Origin: Strigamia acuminata
Taxonomy: Eukaryota > Arthropoda > Chilopoda > Geophilomorpha > Linotaeniidae
Length of the DNA stretch: 64,000 nt
Assembly: GCA_949358305.1 (NCBI GenBank)
Contig: OX442318.1
Span: 9,964,517 to 10,028,516 of the forward strand
Direction: 5' to 3'
Shown here piece by piece: positions 40,284 to 63,880 of this stretch (the stretch's first letter is position 1; each line of letters starts with the position of its first letter). The notes beneath the pieces are model-generated. The model was not told the DNA's origin. It did no database searches and was given only the letters and a program-made list of their open reading frames with translations. A program made the translations under genes and the position numbers.

Positions 40284-40467
40284 ATATTTCAACCCAATTA
40301 ATTTCCAGTGACTTTTTGGTGTTGTTGTGTGCTTTTTCAAACACTTCCGGTCTCCAACCACGCTGTCCTCCGACCACGCTGTCCACGCCTTTCCAGTGCA
40401 GGCCTAATTCCGAACGTGTGAGTTTTTACGTGTGTTTTCGCCGATTTTATTCTTCTAAATCTACGAG

Positions 40468-41322
40468 ATGCCTCGCCTTGTTGGTGACCCTAACAAATAC
40501 GATCCAGCAGACGACTGGAGCACCTACACTGCCCAGCTGAAGTGTGTTTTCACCTGCAATGGAATTACCAACGACAAGCAGAAAGTTAATACCTTGTTGG
40601 CTTGCGTCGGCATTGCAACTTTTAAAAAAATCACGGACTTGGCGTTCCCGAAAGATCCGGCCGAAATGCTGTACGCCGATGTGATTAAGCTGATGGAAAA
40701 GCACCAGAAGCCCAAGCCACTGGTCGGCGGCGAGCTGTTCCGCTTCCGCTCACGGCGACGAAAGCCCGATGAATCCGTTGCAGACTTCGCGGCCGCACTC
40801 CAAGCGCTAACAAGATACTGCGAGCTTGGCGAATCGCTCAATAATGAACTGCGCAACCAATTCATCTGGGGTTTGCAGATGAAGCACGTGCAAAATGCGC
40901 TCATCATTCAAAGCGACTTGACGTTTGAAAAGGCGCTGGATGCTGCGACCGCCGCGGAATTGGCTTACGCCGACGTTTCCAGTTTCGAGGACCCTCCTAC
41001 GGCAGTCCACACGATCCAGAACGGTAGGAACCAGCGACGTAACACCCACCGTGACCACAGTTCTTCCTTCCACGGCCCGGCGCCTCCAGCGGATCCTGCG
41101 AGCCTCCAGCCCCAATCGAGTGACGACCGCCACAAATGCTTTTCGTGCGGCGCCACGGACCATCGTAGGCACGAGTGTAAGTTCCGACAGTCCCGGTGCC
41201 ATGCGTGCGGCAAGATTGGGCACATTCAGGCTGCCTGCTGGTCCGGTGATAAGCAGTCTGTAACCGCGTCGGCCCCCGTCAACACGGTACATGTTGAGCC
41301 GCGCAAATTGCAGTTTTATTAG
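40468..41322 (+). CDS. Ty3-type Gag with two CCHC zinc knuckles
   Basis: This 284-residue protein packages retrotransposon RNA. Residues about 10-170 resemble the capsid-like retrotransposon Gag domain of Mag/K02A2.6-type Ty3 elements: FRFRSRRRKPDESVADF at 91-107, then an ALTRYCELG block and DLTFEKALDAA near 150-160. Two knuckles follow, C224-X2-C227-X4-H232-X4-C237 and C244-X2-C247-X4-H252-X4-C257, the nucleic-acid-binding part. The ATG at 40468 is the first in frame after the 5' leader. The frame is uninterrupted and GC-richer than its surroundings, so it still looks intact. No protease or polymerase frame follows, so mobility would need Pol from another element. It is unrelated to the much longer Gag of the 12.3-kb element. 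Confidence 0.92.
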   Translation: MPRLVGDPNKYDPADDWSTYTAQLKCVFTCNGITNDKQKVNTLLACVGIATFKKITDLAFPKDPAEMLYADVIKLMEKHQKPKPLVGGELFRFRSRRRKPDESVADFAAALQALTRYCELGESLNNELRNQFIWGLQMKHVQNALIIQSDLTFEKALDAATAAELAYADVSSFEDPPTAVHTIQNGRNQRRNTHRDHSSSFHGPAPPADPASLQPQSSDDRHKCFSCGATDHRRHECKFRQSRCHACGKIGHIQAACWSGDKQSVTASAPVNTVHVEPRKLQFY

Positions 41323-45779: not shown

Positions 45780-45783
45780 GTTG

Positions 45784-46742
45784 TGCTGCGATCCGGGTTT
45801 TTATCCACTTAATTTCTAATAAATTAAGCAGAAACCGCAGGTGAATGCTATAAAAGACTTACAATCGGCGGCCTTAAATTATCTAGGGGTTAAGTTTAAG
45901 GAAAAGAAATAAAAAGACAGTTTTATTAATAAAAATCACAAATATGTATTTATTCGTTTAAATTACAATGACTAGTTAAAAATATCACAATGGCGACAAG
46001 TCGCGAAATGAAATGAGCGGGAACAATGGAAGGGCTTGCAACGACTGTTGCAAGCTACAAAGCGCTAAAATGGCGCTTAAACAACACACAGTTGTTAGGC
46101 GAAGGCGAATTGTCTTCGTTTGCTGAACTCACGAACGATGGTCGAAGACGATGGTTCTCGTGGGCTCCTTCTACGGCTCGTGCGACGGCTCGGCGGCGGT
46201 GGTTGACGGCTGTAGGCGTCCGGCTCTCGTACGATGGCGGTGGCTGTCGTTCGCGCGGCAGCGACGGCGATGGTTCACGATCGTCGGGAAACTTCTTCTT
46301 CTCGTTTGCTGGAATTAGCTACGGCTAATTCAAGCAGAATTGCTGGCTTTGTGCTTTGGGTGGCACAAAGATAGCAGGTGAAACTGAGTTACAACGGTCC
46401 TCTATCAATACGTATTGTCGGAGCAGATATCGCAGTGATGTTGAGGTTGTTGTTGTATTTTTCAGAGTCCCGATTTGAGCCAAGACGCGAGCCCAGCACG
46501 CTTCAATATTGCGCAGAAAACCTGCGCACTTAGCTCAAATGGGTGCAACTAGTGGTTATTACACCATATTGCACCATAACGGCTAATAACCGTTTTCACC
46601 CCGGACAACCTGGGGTGATATGTGCCTAGAGAGGATTTCTCCCCTCGGTCACATGATCTGACTTGGCGTGTGCCACAGTCAAATTAATTAGAAGATAATT
46701 AATTTAATCTTCTAAGTTGGTGAATATTTTGAGATCACCACA
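45784..46742 (-). repeat. 3' LTR (959 bp)
   Basis: Same sequence as 57162-58120. Its AATAAA words (minus strand, plus 45922-45927 and 45949-45954) would lie 138 to 171 bases from the element's end, a sensible place for 3' end formation. Confidence 0.95.
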
Positions 46743-46794: not shown

Positions 46795-49590
46795 TTATGA
46801 TTCGTCCATGGTCTGAGTTCGCTCAGGCGTCAACGGGCGCATCATATCCGTGGTGTCGTCCCTCGGGTTGGACCGCTCGTTAACCGTACACAGGTCGCGA
46901 CCTGCGTTTGGTCCGGAGACCATTCCAGGGTTGACATGAAGCCAAACCTGGATGATTCTCGCCGAGTTCGCTCGGTTGAAAAATCCTAGCGCCGCAAACT
47001 CTATGGGATCCTCTGGCGCCAATCGTGCTCTCAGGAGTCGATCGTGGAGCACTGATGGTGGGCTTAACACCCGGATGTGGTCCTCGAGCCACATAAACAC
47101 CTGCCTCGACAACTTGTGGTTGTTGCTAAGCAGTGTTCGCGTATCCGGCGTCAAATAGAAGTGCGGATACAGGCGCATCAGGGTCTTGAAAGCCGACTCT
47201 TTTTTCAGCGGCTTGACCTTCGTCTCCGGCTTGGCTGGCGGCGGCGGCGGCGGACGTGAGTCTTCCGTCGTGGCATCGTCAAAATGGCACTGCGGGCCCA
47301 AGAAAACCAACGCGGGTGCGGAGGTTGACGAGGGTGTGACGCCTCGTCCCGGTGCTCGACCCACACCGGGGAGCTGACGGGTTTCGACTACCCGTTGAAC
47401 TCCGGCTGGAGTTTGAGAACTTCCGGCGTTCTCTGGCCAAAATGAACATCCAGCGCCCTCTTGGGCCGACTGGAAAACAGCCAGTGACGCAGCTGCTGTG
47501 GCGCTTGTAACTGGAAGCGGTGGTCTTCCGGTCATTCGCGCCGTGGCCTTCGCAAAGGACCACTCGGTTCGCAACCGAACGGCGGCCTCTTCTTCGGTCT
47601 CACCGTTTGCTACGACTTGCTTTATTAGCTCGGCTAAGATCGTAGGCGGGTCGAGCCTGAGGTGGTACCACAGCTCGACTTTCTTCTCCGACAGGCCCAT
47701 CGGCGCGGTCCAAAGGTACGTTATGGCCGCTAACGCCTGTCCTGGCGAAGGAAGAACACCAGGGTACAACACCCTAGTCATCCCCGGAATTAGCTGACGC
47801 TGAAAATCCATCAGACGGGGATCATCAATGGTATTGATGTCGGAGACTTCTAGCCTTTCAGCTAGTCTCTGCCAGTCCTTCTGCGACTCGGCGATCTGGG
47901 CGCTTTGGTATGCGTCCAGCTTCTGGAGCACTTCCTGCTGTGCTCTAATGGGTTGCTGCTCGTAGCAGGTCCATTGTGGGCCGAATGACTCACTAAAAAA
48001 TGGCCGGAGTTGCAGGTTGCTAACTCCAGCCGGCAAGCGGGAAACATATCCTTGTTCGGGCAAGCGGCTAGCATGTCCAGGTACTGGCACGCTACAGTCG
48101 GGAGAAATATCACCGACAACACGTCTCATGGCGTATGGAGTAGCCGAGTTGTCCACTTTGAACGTGGAGGCGGTTCGGCTACTTCGGGCGGACTTAATTG
48201 TGGAGTCCGATTCGAAACTCAGCGAAGACGACGAGCCAAACGACTCTGGTGTCCGTCCTCGTCGCGACTGCGGGCGTGATGGCTGCGCGTCAGTCGAATA
48301 TGGGCGTGATCGCCTCTGACGTTCCTCTCGATCGCGGCTTGATTCGCGGAACATCGGTCGGACTGGAACCGGCGGAGGGAGTTGCCCCACCCTCAAATCC
48401 TCGTCTTGCGGCGGAGGATTGATGGCCGCTGGGGCCGGAATTTCATCTTCTTGATAAAAAGGGAGAGCGCAACGCGCTTGCTCCTCTGCCTCGTGTTCTC
48501 GAGCCAGTTGTCGATTTTCGTCGACGCGAAGCTGCACCGCGGCAGCTCTGAGTGCTTTGGACGGGAAAAATCCCGGAAAATCGTTAAAACACCCGGCGAG
48601 CGCCAACTGGTGGAGCTCGGTTTGTGTGACGGGAAGTTGTGGGTTCCCGTCACGAACGGATTTGCGATACCGTTTAACGACTTCGCGTTGTGTCGTCTTG
48701 AGGTTCTTCCTCAATTGGGTTAGAGCACCGTAATTAATTCCGGTACTCTTTAGCGCTCTTCTGCGCTCGTGACGCTCTCGTGGCGTCACTGGCCACTGGT
48801 TGTGCAGCAACTCTGCTGCAAGCGGTCCTGGGGGGCTCTCGTCGAGCGTCCACTCGATTTCGTCGACACCGTCCACGTGAAGGCGCTCGATGAATCTTCC
48901 TTTTGCACCAAATCCTTGCAGCGCTGATCTGCTGAAGTCGTGGCGCAACTTCCACCAGGTATTGTTTGCCGTCTTCAGTCTTCTGATTTTTTCGGGCAAT
49001 GCCGCTCGAAAAATCAGCGGGTGCTGAGTCGGCACGTGATCGGGAAGCGCGAATGGCGTTTCTCGATCCCTCTCGATCTGTATTCGAAGAAAAATAAATA
49101 AATTAGTTTATTTAAAAATAAACAAATAATTTCTTATTTGAAATATTTTTTAAGCTTAGCGCTTGTGGCTGTGAGTCACTAAGGGATGTTGGTTGTCATG
49201 GCAACTCCCTTCGCACATGCTTGAAGCACGTGACTTTTATAGCCGCCATTTTTATTTTTTAGCGGCTTGTGTTTGAAGTCAGGAAAAGTGAAATTACTCA
49301 ATTTTTCTGACTTAAACACTTGGTAAAAATTTATTCTAATAATTTACCCGTTGTTGAAGCGTCAATTGAACGTCTTCATTTGCCCCTTCCATGGGCATTT
49401 CTCCGTCCGCCTGGAGTTGGATCGCTTCCTCGTCCTTTCTCTTTCGTTTTCCGGTAATTTCGGAAATTCTTTCGTCTTGAAAGAGAAATAATACATAAAT
49501 CTTATGTTTTATCAAATTTTTCATACAGAAAAATTACTTACGATCAGGTTGTCGAACTATTCGGGTCGTAACGTAGGCGATGCGATGCAT
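46795..49590 (-). CDS. ORF3, predicted 819-residue protein of unknown function, two introns
   Basis: It sits where env lies in envelope-bearing Ty3 elements, but I recognise no family. The main frame is open from 49077 to the stop at 46795 but lacks a good ATG. Splicing supplies one: exon 1 is 49590-49542, starting at an ATG; exon 2 is 49475-49348; exon 3 is 49077-46795. Donors are GTAAGT and GTAAAT; acceptors are CTCTTTCAAG and TTCTTCGAATACAG. Phases match at both joins. Exon 2 holds GKRKRKDE, a basic NLS-like motif, and an acidic stretch. In exon 3 there are W/R-rich N-terminal residues, an S/R-rich low-complexity part, a possible helical region around ITYLWTAPMGLSEKKVELWY, and a proline run. 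No signal peptide or membrane span is visible, so it is not a typical Env. It is markedly GC-richer than pol, suggesting separate origin. Confidence 0.7.
49078..49347 (-). other. Predicted intron 2 of ORF3 (270 bp)
   Basis: Starts GTAAATTATT after a complete CGG codon and ends TTTATTTTTCTTCGAATACAG in outline, an excellent acceptor. Exon 3 then opens on a whole codon in the ORF3 frame. The intron is AT-rich, in contrast to the GC-rich exon 3. Confidence 0.7.
49476..49541 (-). other. Predicted intron 1 of ORF3 (66 bp)
   Basis: Starts GTAAGT directly after exon 1 and ends in a pyrimidine-rich TTATTTCTCTTTCAAG. Its length fits the short introns of invertebrates. Removing it carries a single base of a split codon into exon 2, keeping frame. 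Confidence 0.7.
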
Positions 49591-49592
49591 AC

Positions 49593-49779
49593 ACTCTCGA
49601 AACTTTTGAAAAAGTGACTAAGTTCGTTGATTGCAAACACGAACTTGGATTAGAGACGCTTTGTGACGTCACTAATTATAACGTATGATTAACGTTGTCA
49701 TTCGAGTGGGTACTACGAATGACGTCACGAGATTGCTTTCTCGGATCTTTTGGGTAAACCCAAAAGGTGAAAGACAACA
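49593..49779 (-). promoter_or_regulatory. Pol-ORF3 spacer with two CRE palindromes
   Basis: Between the pol stop and the ORF3 ATG lie two perfect CRE/ATF sites TGACGTCA (49664-49671 and 49720-49727), 56 bp apart. Between them is an 8-bp inverted repeat gtcattcg/cgaatgac (49697-49704 and 49716-49723). A TATA-like TTATAATTAG lies on the minus strand near 49680. This could be an internal promoter for ORF3. Alternatively, a splice acceptor in TTTTTCAAAAG near 49605-49615 could receive a leader from the 5' LTR. Confidence 0.45.
49747..49766. repeat. 20-bp palindrome just past the pol stop
   Basis: Exact 9-bp arms cttttgggt / acccaaaag around AA, 14 bases downstream of the pol stop codon on the minus strand. 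It would form a tight hairpin in the RNA. Confidence 0.75.
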
Positions 49780-52700
49780 CTATGTCTTGGCTCGCGGAAC
49801 GCGAGATCTCAAGTTGTACTTTGACTTTCGCGAAGTACAATCCAACTTGTTTAGATTGTCATCAGCATCGTCTCCAATGTCAGATGAGTTATATACTTCA
49901 TTGTTTGAAATTTTCTCTTTTTCTAAAAACATTTCCTTTTCTAGATTTTCATCAAGAGAAACATTTTCAAGTCGCTGGTTTATTTCATCGACTTCGTTAT
50001 TTTTGAGTTTCGATTTTTTACTCGATTCCGTGTTTTCGACAGGAATTTTGGATAATTTAGCATCATCCAAGGTATTAACAATATTCTTTGTTTTTTGACC
50101 CACTTCCTCCCCTTCCAGCCAAATTTCTTGGTTGAAAACGGGAAAGTACGGCATTAATTCAGTGCCGTGAACAGCTGGATAAATTTTATTATCACTCAGC
50201 CGTCGAAGTTGAAAGGCGCCTCCTTGTAACCTTTTGATAATTACATAAGGCCCATTCCTTTTCGGTGAAATGCCTGCTGCTATTCCTTTAGCGGCATTTG
50301 AGAGAATATGAGACTCTCGCCAGACTAAATCATTTTGTCTGAAGTTGTCGAATTTCTTATCTGATTTTTCAGCTTCGACACGGCGTCTCAAATCTAAGAC
50401 GTGAGACATCATATGCTGATACGTCTCTGCAATTATTGTTTCTAATTTCTGAACATATAAATGCGGATTTTTTGGATCAATGACTAAAATTCCTTCCGGA
50501 ATTCTTGGATCCCAAGGAATTCTTAATTCTCGGAAAAAATTTAAGAAAGCAGGAGAATAATCTCTGCCTCTTGTTACAGTTGTTCTCAAACTGAATGCAA
50601 ATTCGCGTAGATACTCATCCCATTGGTCATGAATATCTAAATAAATCGAAACTAAATATTTAATATCTCGATTGGTTCTCTCCACAGGATTGCTTTGTGG
50701 ATGATAAATCGATGTCGGTGTTCGCGACATGTCGAATTTTTTGCAAAATTCTTTATAGACCTGTGATCGAAATTGTGGTCCATTATCACTTATGATTTGT
50801 CTCGGAAATCCGAAAGTCATTGATAAGTGATAAATTGTGTTGGCAACTTTTATTGCCGTTGGATTACACATTGGAAATAATTCGGGCCAATGTGTAGCGA
50901 CATCTACGATGACGCAAATGTGGGTATTGTTTTTTCTGGTTCTTGGTTTGGGACCAGACAAATCCACACTGAGGCAGTCAAATGGTCCAAATGGTCCAAT
51001 TTGAGCGCCTTCAATTTCGGTCTTTGATCTCGGCTTACATGCCTGACATCCTTGACAATGTTGAATAAAACGTGTAATATCACGTTTCATACCTTTCCAG
51101 GTATAAACTCTTCGAGTTCGGTACATTGTCCTCGCAATGCCTGGGTGGCCGGACAGTGGATGTCCGTGCATCAACCAAATGATTTTATAAATCAATTTTC
51201 TTGGCACAACAACTTTAAGTGCCCTACCATCCTCTCCCAATTCATCGGTGGAGGTAGGATGATAATGGAGTAGCATATCTTCTTCAATGAGATAAGTACT
51301 CGCGTGTCTTTCAAAGTTTCTTCTTTGAAGACGAGTTACTATGTAACTTGGATATTGCTTGTTTAGCAAGTAATTGCGAATATGTTGGCAAAATTCGTCT
51401 GCTTTTTGCGCTGCAATAATGTCATCTCTCGTTGGAGGATCACATTCTAATTGCTTCGCAATTTTAGCTGCAAATGCTTTAATTAAAACATTTGTTGTTG
51501 GCAGCTCGAATTTTTTAGCCATCATAGCTCTTAATTCGACGTCAGGGGTTCCTGACGGATCATGCATGTTAATACAAAAATTAATTAATGCTTGATCGTC
51601 GTCATTAACTATTATTGACTTGGGTAATTCGTTCAATTTTCCCATTTGCCAACTTCGGCAAGGAGATGGACAATATGATAATAAATCATCATTATCGCCA
51701 TCGTCTTCTGGTTCGTCAGGTGCGCTGACAGGTGCACGTGACAATGCGTCTGCTATTACATTCAGCGGACCTTTGACGTATTGTATTTCGAACGAATACG
51801 CCATTAGCTCCATTTGCCAACGAGCTAATCTGCCCGACGGGTCAGATAACGACATCAACCACTTAAGTGCTTGGTGATCCGTTTGTACAGTGAATGTAGT
51901 GTACTCTAAGTATGGGCGAAATTTGCGTAATCCCCATACTACTGCGAGACATTCTAATTCTGTCACAGTATAATTCTTTTCAGCGGGTTGCAAGCTTCTG
52001 CTTGCATACACGCATGGCATTTCGACTTCTTGGCCATCCACAATTTTCTTTTGTGTAAGGGCTGCACCCAACCCTTGTTTACTGGCGTCAGTATGAACAA
52101 TAAATGGCATGTACAAGTCAGGCATCTTCATTGTTTCAGCATTCGTAAGCAGGTCTTTTATTGCGTCGAATGCTGCTTGATGATGCAGTTCCCAATCGAA
52201 CTCCGCATCTTTCTTCAAGAGTGGCCTTAGTGGTTCTGCCACTGTGGCCAAATTCTTGATTAGGCGGTGAAAGAAATTCACCATGCCTAGAAATCTTTGT
52301 AATTCCTTAAGATTGGTAGGAGCAGGAAATTGCGTAATTGCAGCGACTTTTTTAGGGTCTACTGCAAGTCCTTCTACTCCTACTTTGTAGCCTAGAAAAA
52401 TTAATTCCTTTCTACAGAGATGCGTCTTGCCAGGGTGCGCATGTAAATTAGCTTCTGCCAATTTTTTAAACACTATATCTAAATGTTTAATGTGTTCTTC
52501 GAACGATTTGGATACAACAATTATGTCATCCAAATATGCCCATGCAAATTTTCTGTAAACGTCACCCAAAACTTTTTCCATTAATTCTTGGAAGGTAGTT
52601 GGTGCGTTTACTAATCCGAAAGGCATGACTAAAAACATTAGTCTTCCCATTGGGCTCCAGAAGGCAGTTTTTTCTCTGTCTTCAGGGCGCAATTCTATCT

Positions 52701-54033
52701 GCCAATATCCCTTGGTCAGATCTATAGTACTGACCCACTCGAATTCTCCGATTTCTCGCAGAATTTCCTCAATTGTTGGCATTTGAGGTGGGTTGTACTT
52801 AGTATGTGTATTGATGGGGCGAAAATCAATGCACAAGCGCGGGTCGTTTCCTGGTCGCATGACTAGGACTGGCCTCATTCCGTAATCGCCTTCAGCTTTG
52901 ACGACTACGCCTTTGTCAATCATGTCTTGACAAAGTTGTCTGATTATTTCCCTTTTTTGAGGGTTTATGCTCTTAAAGGGGACACGGATGGGTTTCTCCG
53001 TGTCAAGCTCAATTTTGTGCTTAACCAGGTGTGTTTTACCTGGATCTTTAGAAATAATCCTTTTATGTTTGGATAACATCTTTTCTAATAATTTGGATTG
53101 CTCCAAATTTAAGTTAGCTTCTTCGACTAACTTTTGGATGAAATTCTCTTCATCAATTTTGCCTTGAGTTACACTTGCAGCGTAAGCTTTTGCAAAGGTC
53201 ATAAATGAGGAATCGGGTTCCTCTATTTTCTCCAAATAACGATCCAGCAACGCTTGTGGAATGTAGGGTAAATCTGCATCCATAGGTTGCGTGAAATTCC
53301 AAGACATCGTCTGTGGATTAGGTTGGATTTTTAATTTATTCATAAAATCGCAACCCAATAGTACCATTGGATACTTATTTGGTATTACGATGAACGGATG
53401 ACGTAACGTGCCATGTGTCCATCGAAATGAAAGATGAATGGTTCCATCTGGAGTGACTTCTTCACTTGCCGTCGTGACTCTGACACCAGGTCCGATAGGT
53501 CGTAGATATTTTTCTAGACCTAATTGATTAATAACTGAAGTGGCTAGGAAGCTTTTATTTGCTCCTGAGTCCAACATTCCGGTTATTACACCTTTTAACG
53601 TTTCTAACTTTAACGTCGGAAGGTCTTGGCTGTTTGGTATTCCAGCCACTTTGCACTCAAACTTGCGCAATTTATGAGGAACTGTAATTGGAGGCTCCAA
53701 AGGCAATTCATCTAATAACTCATTGGTATCAAGAGTTGTAGCTGCAAATAACTTAATGCACTCCTCAATTCCAGGTGTCTCTGGAACTGAGCTTGGTCTA
53801 TCGTCTTTAACTTCGACTTTATCTTGAATATTGGAAGTGTCTTCTTCAGTCGGGGTTTCGCCGACAATCTCCTTTTTTACATCAAGAGATCCTTTTTCTT
53901 TTAGTTCTGTTTGACGAATTAATTCATCAATAACTTCTCCAACATCTTCCATTATCTTCAGATTTTCATTCTCTGATTCCGATTTCGGAGGTGACGCAGC
54001 GTCCACTAGACCTGATGGATCTGCGTCTACAAG
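49780..54033 (-). CDS. Pol: protease, reverse transcriptase, RNase H, integrase
   Basis: Made as a Gag-Pol fusion by -1 frameshifting. The pol frame starts at 54033 just after the slip site and has no ATG near its start (a GTG lies at 54006; residues below count from it). The order is a D/E-rich leader (1-110), then protease with LDSGA (145-149). Reverse transcriptase covers about 340-545 with YLDD at 491-494. RNase H covers about 635-755 with acidic residues D640, E683, D710 and D753. Integrase has H949/H954/C984/C987, then D1015, D1074 and E1109 (D-35-E), and a GPY module at 1252-1254. An acidic, lysine-rich tail of about 120 residues follows. All catalytic residues are present and there is no stop or frameshift over 1408 codons. 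Codon use is AT-rich, unlike ORF3 downstream. Confidence 0.95.
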   Translation of the reverse strand, partial: LVDADPSGLVDAASPPKSESENENLKIMEDVGEVIDELIRQTELKEKGSLDVKKEIVGETPTEEDTSNIQDKVEVKDDRPSSVPETPGIEECIKLFAATTLDTNELLDELPLEPPITVPHKLRKFECKVAGIPNSQDLPTLKLETLKGVITGMLDSGANKSFLATSVINQLGLEKYLRPIGPGVRVTTASEEVTPDGTIHLSFRWTHGTLRHPFIVIPNKYPMVLLGCDFMNKLKIQPNPQTMSWNFTQPMDADLPYIPQALLDRYLEKIEEPDSSFMTFAKAYAASVTQGKIDEENFIQKLVEEANLNLEQSKLLEKMLSKHKRIISKDPGKTHLVKHKIELDTEKPIRVPFKSINPQKREIIRQLCQDMIDKGVVVKAEGDYGMRPVLVMRPGNDPRLCIDFRPINTHTKYNPPQMPTIEEILREIGEFEWVSTIDLTKGYWQIELRPEDREKTAFWSPMGRLMFLVMPFGLVNAPTTFQELMEKVLGDVYRKFAWAYLDDIIVVSKSFEEHIKHLDIVFKKLAEANLHAHPGKTHLCRKELIFLGYKVGVEGLAVDPKKVAAITQFPAPTNLKELQRFLGMVNFFHRLIKNLATVAEPLRPLLKKDAEFDWELHHQAAFDAIKDLLTNAETMKMPDLYMPFIVHTDASKQGLGAALTQKKIVDGQEVEMPCVYASRSLQPAEKNYTVTELECLAVVWGLRKFRPYLEYTTFTVQTDHQALKWLMSLSDPSGRLARWQMELMAYSFEIQYVKGPLNVIADALSRAPVSAPDEPEDDGDNDDLLSYCPSPCRSWQMGKLNELPKSIIVNDDDQALINFCINMHDPSGTPDVELRAMMAKKFELPTTNVLIKAFAAKIAKQLECDPPTRDDIIAAQKADEFCQHIRNYLLNKQYPSYIVTRLQRRNFERHASTYLIEEDMLLHYHPTSTDELGEDGRALKVVVPRKLIYKIIWLMHGHPLSGHPGIARTMYRTRRVYTWKGMKRDITRFIQHCQGCQACKPRSKTEIEGAQIGPFGPFDCLSVDLSGPKPRTRKNNTHICVIVDVATHWPELFPMCNPTAIKVANTIYHLSMTFGFPRQIISDNGPQFRSQVYKEFCKKFDMSRTPTSIYHPQSNPVERTNRDIKYLVSIYLDIHDQWDEYLREFAFSLRTTVTRGRDYSPAFLNFFRELRIPWDPRIPEGILVIDPKNPHLYVQKLETIIAETYQHMMSHVLDLRRRVEAEKSDKKFDNFRQNDLVWRESHILSNAAKGIAAGISPKRNGPYVIIKRLQGGAFQLRRLSDNKIYPAVHGTELMPYFPVFNQEIWLEGEEVGQKTKNIVNTLDDAKLSKIPVENTESSKKSKLKNNEVDEINQRLENVSLDENLEKEMFLEKEKISNNEVYNSSDIGDDADDNLNKLDCTSRKSKYNLRSRVPRAKT

Positions 54034-54039
54034 TTTTTT
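53993..54039 (-). promoter_or_regulatory. -1 ribosomal frameshift signal between gag and pol
   Basis: On the minus strand the heptamer A AAA AAC (plus 54033-54039) is in the correct gag phase (CGA AAA AAC TTG TAG). After a 5-nt spacer, TTGTA, comes GACGCAG (plus 54021-54027), which pairs perfectly with CTGCGTC (plus 53993-53999). An inner TCCA/TGGA helix (54016-54019 with 54002-54005) closes a 10-nt loop. Slippage by -1 enters the pol frame, which is open from here. A AAA AAC is the site used at retroviral gag-pro junctions such as MMTV and HTLV. This explains why pol has no ATG of its own. Confidence 0.9.
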
Positions 54040-57000
54040 CGAAACATGTCAGTTATGATCTTGACTGCTTTTTCAAACTCAGCTGTTGACACTGGTTTGT
54101 CCTTTTTAGAGGAAGGGCAGTCTTTTTGCCAATGCCCTAATTTTTTGCATAAATTGCATGGATCAGTGGCAGGCGATTTCTTTTTCGTTGCTGCTGGCGA
54201 GGCAGAACGAGAACGAGCGTCAGACCGGCGCTCTGGCGACACCGCAGGTGACTTTGAATTCCTTTCGGTATTCACCTTTGATGCGTCAAATGAAACATTT
54301 TTTGGTTTCATCCTTGGCTTCCATTTGCCCGCAACGGGGTTATTTTTTGCTAACAACGCCGCTGCTTTGGCCAATAAAGCCATCGTCTCGTCTCCTGTTT
54401 CCTCCTCCTCTTCAGCTTCTTCAGCTTCAGACGACGGAGTTTCAGCTCCAGTTATATTTGCGTGTAACTTAGGGACTGAATGAGGATTTTTGACGTCCTT
54501 TTTGGAAGATTCTTTTTTCGAACTCTTCTCATCCACTTCGTCTAGAAAGTCTTCGTAACTAGGTGGCTGCAACAATTTCAAACCATTAAAGGTTTCATTG
54601 TTTTGCTCAGCGAGTCTTTTCTCTCGCTTTAAGTACGCTGACCTTTCGGCTTCTGTAAGATAAGCTTTGTACTTTTCGTCAATGCGCAATTGATTGACTT
54701 CCATGAATTCGTTTAACTCGGAGAATTTCCCCGGGTCGGGAGCGTCCGACATCATCAGAATATTTTTACTATATTCTGTGAGGCCAGCTCTAAACTGATC
54801 ATCTGCTGTTGCATCAGTAACAGCATGTGGCATTCTGCCAAGCAGATTCTCTGCTCTTAGCATGTACGAATGTAAGCTTTCGCCTTTTCGTTGCTTAAGA
54901 CATCTCCAAAGCGTCTTGATGTCTTCGCTCGATTCACCAAATTTAAACATAAATTGTTTAACGAAGTCATCCCACTTCGTGAAGTCTTTCCTGCGAAACC
55001 ACTCCTTGACACCGCCAACTAGTATTCTTGGTACTAGATGGGCCAATGCACCTTCACAGCTAAAACTGTGAACTTTGCCTAGTTCGAATATTTCCAGCAA
55101 GAGGTTTGACCCTGCTTGCCAATTTCCATTATAGGCATGTGGGATAACTCGATCCCATCTAATGAACTTTTCATCTGTTGTTTGATGAGTCCATTTATCA
55201 GAAGTAAATTCACTTATTTTTTGCAAAATAATTTTATCCCTTCTGCTTTTTCGCTGTTGTTGAGCATTTTGCCTCAACAACTGGTCAATCTCATCTTTCG
55301 TGTAAAAATCGGGTCTTTGAGTTCTACTACGTGTTCTGTGACGAGATCGCCCTCTCACACTGGGACGTGAGGAATCTGTATCTGACGCAGATTCATGATT
55401 CGGATTTGGCGGCGGATCAGGGTCCGGAGGATCGTCGCCATCTGGCGGACGACGGTCTCCATTTGGTGGTCCCCTTCCATTTCGATTGCCATTCGAATTG
55501 TGGTCACGTGAGTGGCCACCTCCATGTCCATCTGAACTGTCTCCACCTGGTGGGTCACCACCTGGCGGATTTCCACGGTATCTCGGCCCATCACGGATGT
55601 CGTTGTGACAATCTCGTTTTGGTGAGCCTTCTCGCGGATTATCGTGTGACCGTCCACGATCGTGTGGTTTCTCACGTTCTTTATTCTTTTTCGCCAGCAA
55701 TCCAATTAATTGGTCACTATTGCTAAAGAATCTATCCGAATTTTGCGGAACTTTTGGGGAATGATATTCGGTCGGGTCTGGTTGTCGCTTTCTCTTTTTG
55801 CGACTGTGATGACTATTACGGCTTCCACGACTACTGCGTGAGTCATCGCTGTCAGTCCAACTTGATTGTCGACTGACTTTTGGTTTAGCTGATGTTAAAT
55901 CAATCAACTCAGGTGATTTGGAAGCACCTTTTTGCAAAACTGGGGCTGGCTTTGCAAAATTATCTTCGCCACAAACGTCTTGTACTTTTTGTACGACTAC
56001 TGCAAAGTTTTCTTGTACCGTCAATAGATCTGCGCGAAGAATTTCGTTTTCACGAGCTTGCGCAGCTAAGTCGGCACGTAATAACTGCTCTGCAGTGCTT
56101 AGACTTTTGGCGGCTTGACCAGCATCAATTACAGACTGCTGTCGAGCGAGAAATACTTCGTTTTCTCGTTGTGCTAATCTCTTAGCTCTTGCTGCTTGTT
56201 CTACAGCATAATTCTCGTAATTTCGAGAACATGAGGGGATTATTTCCCTCGCTCGAACTGGGGCGGTTAGTTCGGCAGTCATTAAATTTGTGTTGGCTTC
56301 TCGCAGATTTGCGTTAGCCAATCTCAAATTTTCATTAGCAATTTCTAAATCTTTTTGTGCTTGATTTAGTTGCTCGAGCCTTTGTTGTTGCTCTTCGTCA
56401 GTAATTAGCCAGGAAGCTTTTTCCTGCTCTAATTGTAACAACTTAACATGGTCATTCGCACGTTGTTGTTTTAGTTCGGCATTTTGCTGATGCATTTCTG
56501 CACGCATTCGCTCGAACTCTGCTTGCAAGCTTGTTCTGACGATTTCAACGTCTTTTTGACTTTGTTTGCGAACCATAGCTTTGTGGATTTGTTCCACAGT
56601 CATTTCGCTAGTGACTATTACTCCCTCGAGCCTAGCTTGCTCACGGAGTGCGTCCATCATGGTAACACGCACGGGAGAATGAGAAACTTCCATATTGGAG
56701 TTCTCAGAATCTTGTTGTGCTGCACCTTGAACCGGTGATGAATTCAGCGAGTGCTCTGCACTTGATGATTGAATTCGTAAATTCAAATCATCGTTTTGCG
56801 ACTTGGAACGGCCACTTCCAGTTGGATTGTTTAAGTCCAACTGGCCGCTGGGCGGGGATGGCTGTTGTCGCTCCAACGCTTGCGTGAATTCATTCACGAT
56901 TAACTGTGCCGAGTTACAGTTAGCTGTTTGATCCATGGCTTCAAACAATTCTTGTGACTCAGTCACTTCTTGATCCACGACTGGTAGATCGATCGCCACT

Positions 57001-57050
57001 CGTCTCTTCGCCGGCCTTCCTCTCGGTCTCTTCTCTGAAGGAGTCGCCAT
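54027..57050 (-). CDS. Gag, 1007 residues, with AT-hook, coiled coils, PPSY and CCHC knuckle
   Basis: This is the structural protein that packages the element's RNA. The ATG at 57050 has a good context (A at -3, G at +4) and is about 110 bases from the LTR. An AT-hook-like PRGRPAKRR lies at residues 9-17. Predicted coiled coils, rich in Q/E/L, run at about 155-260 and 280-355. A basic stretch SRKKRKRQ (416-423) looks like a nuclear-localisation signal. A low-complexity P/G/D/R hinge covers about 455-575. The capsid-like part is near 615-800 (WFRRKDFTKWDDFVKQFMFKFG, cut here by position 684-705). PPSY at 829-832 is a PPxY late-domain motif. One knuckle, C965-X2-C968-X4-H973-X4-C978, ends the protein. 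At 1007 residues it is about twice the usual Ty3 Gag. The stop lies two codons after a frameshift site leading into pol. Confidence 0.93.
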   Translation of the reverse strand: MATPSEKRPRGRPAKRRVAIDLPVVDQEVTESQELFEAMDQTANCNSAQLIVNEFTQALERQQPSPPSGQLDLNNPTGSGRSKSQNDDLNLRIQSSSAEHSLNSSPVQGAAQQDSENSNMEVSHSPVRVTMMDALREQARLEGVIVTSEMTVEQIHKAMVRKQSQKDVEIVRTSLQAEFERMRAEMHQQNAELKQQRANDHVKLLQLEQEKASWLITDEEQQQRLEQLNQAQKDLEIANENLRLANANLREANTNLMTAELTAPVRAREIIPSCSRNYENYAVEQAARAKRLAQRENEVFLARQQSVIDAGQAAKSLSTAEQLLRADLAAQARENEILRADLLTVQENFAVVVQKVQDVCGEDNFAKPAPVLQKGASKSPELIDLTSAKPKVSRQSSWTDSDDSRSSRGSRNSHHSRKKRKRQPDPTEYHSPKVPQNSDRFFSNSDQLIGLLAKKNKEREKPHDRGRSHDNPREGSPKRDCHNDIRDGPRYRGNPPGGDPPGGDSSDGHGGGHSRDHNSNGNRNGRGPPNGDRRPPDGDDPPDPDPPPNPNHESASDTDSSRPSVRGRSRHRTRSRTQRPDFYTKDEIDQLLRQNAQQQRKSRRDKIILQKISEFTSDKWTHQTTDEKFIRWDRVIPHAYNGNWQAGSNLLLEIFELGKVHSFSCEGALAHLVPRILVGGVKEWFRRKDFTKWDDFVKQFMFKFGESSEDIKTLWRCLKQRKGESLHSYMLRAENLLGRMPHAVTDATADDQFRAGLTEYSKNILMMSDAPDPGKFSELNEFMEVNQLRIDEKYKAYLTEAERSAYLKREKRLAEQNNETFNGLKLLQPPSYEDFLDEVDEKSSKKESSKKDVKNPHSVPKLHANITGAETPSSEAEEAEEEEETGDETMALLAKAAALLAKNNPVAGKWKPRMKPKNVSFDASKVNTERNSKSPAVSPERRSDARSRSASPAATKKKSPATDPCNLCKKLGHWQKDCPSSKKDKPVSTAEFEKAVKIITDMFRKNL

Positions 57051-57141: not shown

Positions 57142-57159
57142 ATCCCGGACGGGCCCCCA
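57142..57159 (-). promoter_or_regulatory. Primer binding site, tRNA-Pro type
   Basis: On the minus strand, two bases (CG) after the 5' LTR, the sequence is TGGGGGCCCGTCCGGGAT. The tRNA-Pro primer site of gammaretroviruses and HTLV is TGGGGGCTCGTCCGGGAT, so 17 of 18 bases agree. Reverse transcription would start from tRNA-Pro, whose exact sequence in this host may match all 18. Confidence 0.9.
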
Positions 57160-57161
57160 CG

Positions 57162-58120
57162 TGCTGCGATCCGGGTTTTTATCCACTTAATTTCTAATAA
57201 ATTAAGCAGAAACCGCAGGTGAATGCTATAAAAGACTTACAATCGGCGGCCTTAAATTATCTAGGGGTTAAGTTTAAGGAAAAGAAATAAAAAGACAGTT
57301 TTATTAATAAAAATCACAAATATGTATTTATTCGTTTAAATTACAATGACTAGTTAAAAATATCACAATGGCGACAAGTCGCGAAATGAAATGAGCGGGA
57401 ACAATGGAAGGGCTTGCAACGACTGTTGCAAGCTACAAAGCGCTAAAATGGCGCTTAAACAACACACAGTTGTTAGGCGAAGGCGAATTGTCTTCGTTTG
57501 CTGAACTCACGAACGATGGTCGAAGACGATGGTTCTCGTGGGCTCCTTCTACGGCTCGTGCGACGGCTCGGCGGCGGTGGTTGACGGCTGTAGGCGTCCG
57601 GCTCTCGTACGATGGCGGTGGCTGTCGTTCGCGCGGCAGCGACGGCGATGGTTCACGATCGTCGGGAAACTTCTTCTTCTCGTTTGCTGGAATTAGCTAC
57701 GGCTAATTCAAGCAGAATTGCTGGCTTTGTGCTTTGGGTGGCACAAAGATAGCAGGTGAAACTGAGTTACAACGGTCCTCTATCAATACGTATTGTCGGA
57801 GCAGATATCGCAGTGATGTTGAGGTTGTTGTTGTATTTTTCAGAGTCCCGATTTGAGCCAAGACGCGAGCCCAGCACGCTTCAATATTGCGCAGAAAACC
57901 TGCGCACTTAGCTCAAATGGGTGCAACTAGTGGTTATTACACCATATTGCACCATAACGGCTAATAACCGTTTTCACCCCGGACAACCTGGGGTGATATG
58001 TGCCTAGAGAGGATTTCTCCCCTCGGTCACATGATCTGACTTGGCGTGTGCCACAGTCAAATTAATTAGAAGATAATTAATTTAATCTTCTAAGTTGGTG
58101 AATATTTTGAGATCACCACA
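57162..58120 (-). repeat. 5' LTR (959 bp)
   Basis: On the minus strand it starts TGTGGTGATC and ends GATCGCAGCA. Two AATAAA words on the minus strand (plus 57300-57305 and 57327-57332) could provide the poly(A) signal of R. I see no TATA box in sense orientation, although TATAAAAG occurs antisense at 57227-57234. A GC-rich CGG-type block occupies about 57540-57660. It is identical by eye to 45784-46742. Confidence 0.95.
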
Positions 58121-58124
58121 GTTG

Positions 58125-63099: not shown

Positions 63100-63880
63100 A
63101 AACTGTACAAAAACTGAAACTGAAACTAAAAGTGAACTGGAACTAGAACTGAAACTGAAACTAAAAGTGAACGGGAACTAAAACTAAAACTAAAAGTGAA
63201 CTGGAACTAAAATTGAAACTGGAACTAAAAGTGAACTGGAACTAAAATTGAAACTGGAACTAAAAGTGAACTAGAACTAAAACTGAAACTAAAATTGAAG
63301 CTGATGAAACTAAAACTGAAACTGAAATTGTAACTGATGGAACTAAAACTGAAACTAAAACTGAAACCGATGGGCCAAGAACTGAAACTGAAACTGAATT
63401 AAAGCTGAACTGAAACTAAAACTGAAAATGAAACTAAAAGTGAACGGGAACTGAAACTGAAACTAAAAGTGAACTGGAACTAAAATTGAAACTGGAACTA
63501 AAATTGAAACTGGAACTAAAAGTGAACTAGAACTAAAACTGAAACTGAAATTGAAGCTGATGAAACTAAAACTCAAACTGAAATTGTAACTGATGGAACT
63601 AAAACTGAAACTGAAATTGAAACCGATGGGCCAAGAACTGAAACTGAAATTGTAACTGATGGAACTAAAACTGAAACTGAAATTGAAACCGATGGGCCAA
63701 GAACTGAAACTGAAATTGTAACTGATGGAACTAAAACTGAAACTGAAATTGAAACCGATGGGCCAAGAACTGAAACTGAAATTGTAACTGATGGAACTAA
63801 AACTGAAACTGAACTGAAACAAAAACTAAAATTGAAACCAAAACTGAAACCTGAAATTGAAACTGAACTGAACTGAAAAA
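63100..63880. repeat. Hexanucleotide-derived satellite with 66-bp higher-order unit
   Basis: Built from actgaa/actaaa/attgaa hexamers. From about 63583 to 63815 it is organised into near-identical 66-bp units marked by gtaactgatggaact and gaaaccgatgggccaagaac. The 22-codon period gives open frames on the minus strand (FSFSFSS-type repeats), which I regard as by-products. A less regular array occupies 63100-63580. Confidence 0.9.

Follow-up and report, generated by a model that had tools for sequence, protein, structure and literature searches.

A stretch of 64,000 nucleotides (nt) from Strigamia acuminata (assembly GCA_949358305.1, contig OX442318.1, positions 9,964,517 to 10,028,516 of the forward strand; hereafter the window) holds a Ty3-type long terminal repeat (LTR) retrotransposon with a third open reading frame, ORF3, downstream of pol, whose product is predicted to be encoded by three exons. 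The sequence evidence supports well that ORF3 is a genuine and ancestral third gene of a Ty3 clade and that it is spliced. The predicted exon junctions are present in processed genomic copies, the frame is open in most copies and exon 3 is held by purifying selection, and a homologue was found in all 14 loci fetched from related elements of the same genome.

Recomputation returned the gene model of the original prediction, namely two GT-AG introns with matching phases, an ATG at 49590 and an 819-residue product. Its parts, together with three domains that are conserved between lineages, are the following.

49542..49590, minus strand: ORF3 exon 1, 49 nt, with the ATG, 16 codons plus 1 nt; its junction occurs in intron-less copies
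49476..49541, minus strand: ORF3 intron 1, 66 nt, GTAAGT...CAAG, phase 1; absent at 5 junction places
49348..49475, minus strand: ORF3 exon 2, 128 nt, with a basic KRKRK cluster
49078..49347, minus strand: ORF3 intron 2, 270 nt, GTAAAT...ACAG, phase 0; absent at 7 junction places
46795..49077, minus strand: ORF3 exon 3, 760 codons plus stop
48583..49014, minus strand: conserved N domain, exon 3 residues ~22-165, from the lineage alignment
47548..47985, minus strand: conserved M domain, exon 3 residues ~365-510; predicted mostly helical, at low model confidence
46873..47190, minus strand: conserved C domain, exon 3 residues ~630-735

Exons 1 and 2 make up 177 nt (49 + 128), or 59 codons, which with the 760 codons of exon 3 give the 819 residues. 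The frame of exon 3 is open from 49107 and, as had been claimed, is without an ATG, none lying between 49107 and the acceptor; exon 2 is interrupted by a stop in each of its two alternative frames. Exon 1 reads MHRIAYVTTRIVRQPD, and the matter of a signal peptide was judged by eye. The basic exon resembling a nuclear localization signal (NLS) was found again in exon 2, where the motif is KRKRK or KRKRM in the sub-types.

Splicing of these introns would be expected to leave some intron-less copies among the reverse-transcribed ones. Junction patterns were tried for the window's family, with backwards patterns as the control, and for the lineages of loci L052 and L054. In the window's family, the junction of exons 2 and 3 was found at seven places (four exact, three with one mismatch), one of which sits in L061, a locus of a neighbouring lineage, and that of exons 1 and 2 at five places (four exact), while each backwards control gave 0. 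Four loci (L069-L072) carry both junctions, the starts of the two patterns lying 126 nt apart, which is what an exon 2 of 128 nt demands; they hold the last ~2.1 kb of pol, the spacer, exons 1 and 2 and the start of exon 3 as one contiguous stretch with no introns, and in the two that were translated (L072 and L070) the frame runs from the ATG into exon 3. Because the nearest relative among those compared is an intron-bearing copy for three of the four (that of L071 is the intron-less L069), introns were lost more than once, and because pol is present in the four sequenced loci, these derive from a long RNA spliced at its 3' end. For lineage L052, the predicted junction occurs at eight places with one or two mismatches; seven of them are on contig C1 with the integrase motif 1448-1526 nt upstream, and two of the places on C1 have the motif 76-78 nt nearer, which fits the additional loss of a 78-nt intron 1. 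The place C1:43164398 and seven similar ones are intron-less copies that bear pol. The intron-bearing acceptor of the window's family is found at 148 places (at most one mismatch), against the seven intron-less ones; the 100 places listed are exact, and the remaining 48 may hold a few spliced copies. Read from these copies, splicing at the predicted sites is supported as having occurred in transcripts that became genomic copies, and the long, pol-bearing RNA evidently meets the spliceosome, with spliced copies re-integrating at low frequency.

The state of the gene was followed in other copies of the family. With the final 1001 bases of exon 3 as DNA query, 165 candidates were obtained, of which 40 were scored, the window included, and the other 39 were fetched and checked for the features of the gene model. 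The ATG, both donors, both acceptors and the exact lengths of exons 1 and 2 are kept in 37 of the 39, exon 3 is open in 35, and both hold in 34; the exceptions are L025 and L038, which lack the upstream part (L025 fails the open-frame test as well), L014 and L037, each with a single in-frame stop, and L045, which has a frameshift. Exon 3 is likewise free of stops in 57 of the 59 places scored by a protein search (1478 candidates), all near-identical. A motif pattern matches 131 places in the genome, 100 of them listed, and at least one is unrelated, namely L050, a lone divergent match that gave no ORF3 or pol match.

Between the window and a second sub-type (the six copies L043, L044 and L046-L049, with L045 excluded for its frameshift), the ratio of nonsynonymous to synonymous divergence (dN/dS) of exon 3 is 0.10-0.15, and the two alternative frames contain stops and give ratios of at least 1.81 (three copies). 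Against L064, of the next family, the ratio is 0.16 at a synonymous divergence (dS) of 0.65. These values indicate that exon 3 is under purifying selection, and exon 1, with few sites and a ratio of 0.5-0.7, appears to be under little constraint. Along exon 3, dS ranges from 0.30 to 1.62, as recombination would give. A patch made of the spacer, exon 1, intron 1 and exon 2 (49779-49348) also looks like recombination with a diverged relative, being 16-61% different between the sub-types (L043-L049) and flanked by a pol end, intron 2 and exon 3 that are 2-4% different, except for the pol end of L048 alone (13%). The diverged patch still keeps its exon lengths, splice sites and frame, including those of exon 2, which is ~33% different.

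Relatives were sought with a degenerate integrase motif that excludes the window's family (186 places, 100 listed), and the 14 loci fetched, plus two extensions, were picked for differing spellings of the motif and are thus a non-random sample. An ORF3 homologue lies downstream of the integrase motif in every one of them (tblastn), with 13 matching the window's exon 3 directly at E 7e-10 or better and L067 tied to the family only via L054, L053, L052 and L056. The loci comprise near relatives (L055, L061 and L064; ~79-83%) and far groups (L052; L053; L054/L063/L065; L056/L060/L066/L068; L062; L067), so that by this grouping ORF3 is found in at least eight lineages, the window's family included. 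Broken copies are L055, L056, L061, L066, L067 and L068, and L063 and L065 are truncated at the edge of the fetched stretch.

When seven lineages are aligned, the other six are 83, 36, 29, 24, 21 and 25% identical to exon 3 of the window, pairwise identity is about 22-38% (83% in the nearest pair), and 37 columns are invariant, with no cysteine among them. Between the N, M and C domains lie long linkers that to the eye look rich in R/S and P, and fewer rows cover the C domain, as L053 and L063 end at the fetch edge and L060 stops early. In all seven lineages, no ATG lies in the frame of the large exon from the last stop before the acceptor up to that acceptor, and by eye the exon is joined in phase 0 to a short exon upstream of it, across an intron of 169-671 nt; processed copies confirm this join for the window's family and for L052. 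An ATG for the short exons was found in six of the seven, the stretch expected to hold that of L064 lying outside the fetched sequence. L054 and L062 have an additional methionine right after the acceptor, and the short exon often carries basic and acidic runs (e.g. KR and SEDEEE in L062), which are least marked in L052 and L056/L060.

Database comparisons place the ORF3 protein in no known family. Exon 3 of the window has no match in Pfam or PDB; the scan of seven homologues against Pfam gave two weak unrelated matches (E 0.02 and 0.068, one member each) and none to GDSL, DEDDy or paramyxovirus-type env domains; the single match of a PDB profile search (E 1.8) was taken as chance; and neither the IMG/VR scan nor that of phage records gave a match. 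The earlier statement that no family is recognisable holds for Pfam and PDB, but further Ty3 lineages of this genome carry homologues. The description of ORF3 as a spliced third frame without a recognisable Env or membrane span was borne out, with no Pfam env domain in the homologues scanned and a maximum 19-residue hydropathy of 0.80-1.19 in the seven homologues (exon 3 part). Structure prediction from the window sequence alone reached a mean pLDDT of 41 for exon 3 residues 350-740 and of 48 for residues 1-206, and a Foldseek search with the low-confidence 350-740 model found nothing at E <= 0.001.

The element that carries ORF3 is a Ty3/Metaviridae LTR retrotransposon, with two LTRs, a target-site duplication and the order protease, reverse transcriptase, RNase H, integrase. 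Its other features are these.

About 12.3 kb between target-site duplications, minus strand: Ty3-type LTR retrotransposon
57162..58120, minus strand: 5' LTR, TG...CA, an exact repeat of the 3' LTR
57142..57159, minus strand: putative primer binding site TGGGGGCCCGTCCGGGAT, 2 nt past the LTR
54027..57050, minus strand: gag open reading frame, 1007 amino acids (aa), with a single weak CCHC knuckle slightly below the Pfam cut-off
49780..54048, minus strand: pol frame with protease, reverse transcriptase, RNase H, H2C2 and integrase, in Ty3 order (Pfam)
49591..49779, minus strand: spacer between pol and ORF3, with what we take to be CRE palindromes, TGACGTCA, at 49664-49671 and 49720-49727
45784..46742, minus strand: 3' LTR, an exact repeat of the 5' LTR

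The two LTRs match exactly over 960 nt, a single base of this match being put down to chance, and the target-site duplication GTTG (45780-45783 and 58121-58124) was read from the flanks. The identity of the two LTRs points to a recent insertion. The primer binding site is presumably tRNA-Pro-like, and the LTR segment 46470-46739 has an RNA folding far stronger than its shuffles (z -8.3). Elsewhere in the window, a Gag-like frame with a CCHC knuckle (40459-41322, plus strand; Pfam zf-CCHC), which is followed by 49- and 33-bp tandem repeats, probably comes from a different retroelement, and 63110-63820 is a long degenerate array of AAACTG-type hexamers with a unit of 66 bp. The genome also contains TTAGG telomere arrays and a COX1 gene that has 11 TGA codons in frame and is open under the invertebrate mitochondrial code.

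As to function, the introns have been kept although spliced copies re-integrate, which implies that unspliced RNA must escape splicing and be exported, and a phase-0 intron at the same place in seven diverged lineages implies long retention in an RNA-borne element. A spliced and probably nuclear gene of the element's own would be a natural candidate for protecting or exporting the unspliced RNA. The reading that we tentatively favour is that ORF3 is an ancestral, twice-spliced nuclear regulatory gene that lets unspliced genomic RNA leave the nucleus, as CERV of the Ty3 element Cer1 does. The protein would enter the nucleus via its basic N-terminal exon and act on the element's own full-length RNA, either restraining its splicing or driving its nuclear export, as a result of which Gag-Pol would be made and intron-containing genomes packaged. 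It would work like CERV or, by analogy, like lentiviral Rev, relatedness to neither being claimed. The basic run, the lack of a hydrophobic span and the linkers between three domains seem more in keeping with a nuclear regulator than with an Env. A larger proposal, possible but doubtful, is that this Ty3 clade evolved a circuit like that of complex retroviruses, apart from lentiviruses and Cer1, which would consist of a nuclear protein from an ancestral spliced gene, cis-signals confined to unspliced RNA or to the provirus (conserved intron 2) and a switch from an early phase of spliced expression to a late one in which genomic RNA is exported.

Several observations weigh against such an export regulator. 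CERV shares its N-terminal exons with gag and ORF3 does not; the Pfam and PDB comparisons revealed no homology to an RNA-binding family; R/S dipeptides are above the shuffled expectation in only one of the seven homologues (L052); L052 and L056/L060 have only a weak basic run; the L064 copy has an intron 1 donor without GT; and the exon junction was found at 0 places for lineage L054. Intron 2 has an RNA folding score of z -6.7, but controls in the element gave -8.3 (LTR), values to -5.4 (coding windows) and -5.7 (intron 2 antisense), and the fold is absent in three of eight introns (L053, L060 and L062). Covariation among near relatives amounts to one double change against six inconsistent ones in 77 pairs, and with L052 to seven against 19 in 59 pairs, in an alignment whose L051 row is 640 nt long, includes sequence upstream of the intron and is mostly gaps. 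Striking as the fold of intron 2 is by itself, neither controls nor covariation carry a structured RNA element there, which is kept as a lead only.

The main rival, which we consider unlikely, is that ORF3 is a transcription activator or chromatin factor acting via the CRE palindromes of the spacer and sites in intron 2; Tas of foamy viruses and Tax of human T-cell leukemia virus (HTLV) are analogous transcription activators. Motifs that we name CRE, X-box-like and CTCF-like by presumed resemblance are above expectation in spacers or intron 2. TGACGTCA occurs five times in seven spacers (one occurrence partial) against 0.07 expected, twice in the spacer of the window's family and once in L053, with half sites in L054 and L056, and an internal promoter for ORF3 is possible there, a leader splice being the other route by which ORF3 might gain a short mRNA of its own. 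An X-box-like palindrome is present in intron 2 of five of eight sequences against 0.02 expected (at 49192-49205, its sole match in the 64 kb window, and in L049, L064, L052 and L060), and L053 and L054 each have two CTCF-like cores in intron 2, against 0.06 expected in all. Intron 2 is also less diverged from L064 than the synonymous sites of exon 3 (14%, where exon 3 dS is 0.65), and it may be conserved as DNA or as RNA. However, the motifs were chosen by eye and then counted, which makes them leads only, with counts that are partly non-independent because the window and L049 are sister copies; they are not common to all lineages and may serve host factors, and the Pfam and PDB comparisons revealed no DNA-binding domain.

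A role in the particle or its assembly, as a second structural protein or a Gag-like duplicate, is less probable again. ORF3 is large and conserved in parts, and its M domain is predicted to be mostly helical, albeit in the model with the low mean pLDDT of 41 that gave no fold match at the threshold above. Late spliced genes are usually regulatory or envelope genes, which counts against an assembly protein, and a profile comparison (hhalign) of ORF3 with the element's own Gag returned a probability of 0.1%, at the low sensitivity of a single Gag sequence, so that duplication of Gag finds no support there. Improbable as well, and placed after it, is a protein that counters host silencing (e.g. 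the Piwi-interacting RNA (piRNA) pathway) or another restriction. A diverging accessory gene in a recently active family, with identical LTRs and 59 near-identical ORF3 places, would suit this role, but no similarity to a known domain was seen in Pfam or PDB, and the presence of ORF3 in all 14 fetched loci suggests a core rather than an optional role. A degenerate or highly diverged envelope is very unlikely. ORF3 shares its position after pol and its expression by splicing with errantivirus env (PMC12992720), but no 19-residue stretch exceeds a hydropathy of 1.2 in the seven homologues, the 37 invariant columns hold no cysteine (with the C-terminal part covered by some rows only), and a basic run lies near the N-terminus. 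That frame and splice sites are coincidental is refuted for practical purposes by the processed copies, the 34 intact copies out of 39, the dN/dS of 0.10-0.16 and the same phase-0 join in seven lineages.

The original prediction called spliced third genes unusual in Ty3 elements, and they are uncommon, but precedents exist in CERV of Cer1, the ORF3s of rotifers and errantivirus env. What was known is that some Ty3 elements have a spliced non-envelope third gene; what appears new is an ORF3 family that spans at least eight lineages and has no credible match in Pfam or PDB. The literature searched (titles and abstract openings, with most subscription papers outside the search) contained no description of this gene and, besides Cer1, no Ty3 element with a shown spliced non-envelope regulatory gene. 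The conserved intron and the natural intron-less copies provide a record of splicing within one genome, and a recently active family with many intact copies of ORF3 makes genome export by intron-bearing retrotransposons testable. Together, these findings suggest that, among Ty3 elements, the age and frequency of regulatory third genes may have been underestimated.

Among known systems, Rev is a small protein whose gene overlaps env. It resembles ORF3 in its multiple splicing, its basic nuclear signal and the unspliced genome RNA that must exit the nucleus, and no sequence link between the two was found in the Pfam and PDB comparisons. Rev has a role in export (PMC10309623). For an ostracod element, a pol extension is described (PMC7998251). 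The env-F of insect errantiviruses (e.g. ZAM) is a Metaviridae third frame translated from spliced RNA, with a signal peptide, furin site, fusion peptide, conserved cysteines and membrane anchor, whereas ORF3 has no hydrophobic span and no conserved cysteines (PMC12992720). The ORF3s of bdelloid rotifer LTR retrotransposons are also third frames after pol; they are said to be expressed from spliced messages, and they are varied, several being non-envelope, with paramyxovirus-like env, GDSL esterase, DEDDy exonuclease and coiled-coil or transmembrane types (PMC5408684). They are family-specific and missing from the earliest branches (PMC5408684), whereas ORF3 is present here in every fetched locus.

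CERV is the closest parallel in the reading that we favour, that of a nuclear regulator of RNA export. It is the product of a spliced five-exon gene of Cer1 in Caenorhabditis elegans that ends in the ENV position, is nuclear and is required for export of the genomic RNA (PMC10309623). It has 517 aa, with the first three of its five exons in the gag frame, a cysteine-rich region and a GTPase-like domain (PMC10309623). Compared by published description, ORF3 differs in having 819 aa, three exons that all lie downstream of pol (exons 1 and 2 at 49590-49348) and no invariant cysteine, and no CERV entry was among its matches in the solved-structure searches. The two are nevertheless alike in being the third gene of a Ty3 element, multi-exon and spliced, without resemblance to Env and without obvious homologues outside their own group. 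Both have a candidate basic NLS and three conserved domains with linkers (flexible ones in CERV), and the C-terminal half of CERV is the frame in the Env position, much as ORF3 has its place after pol.

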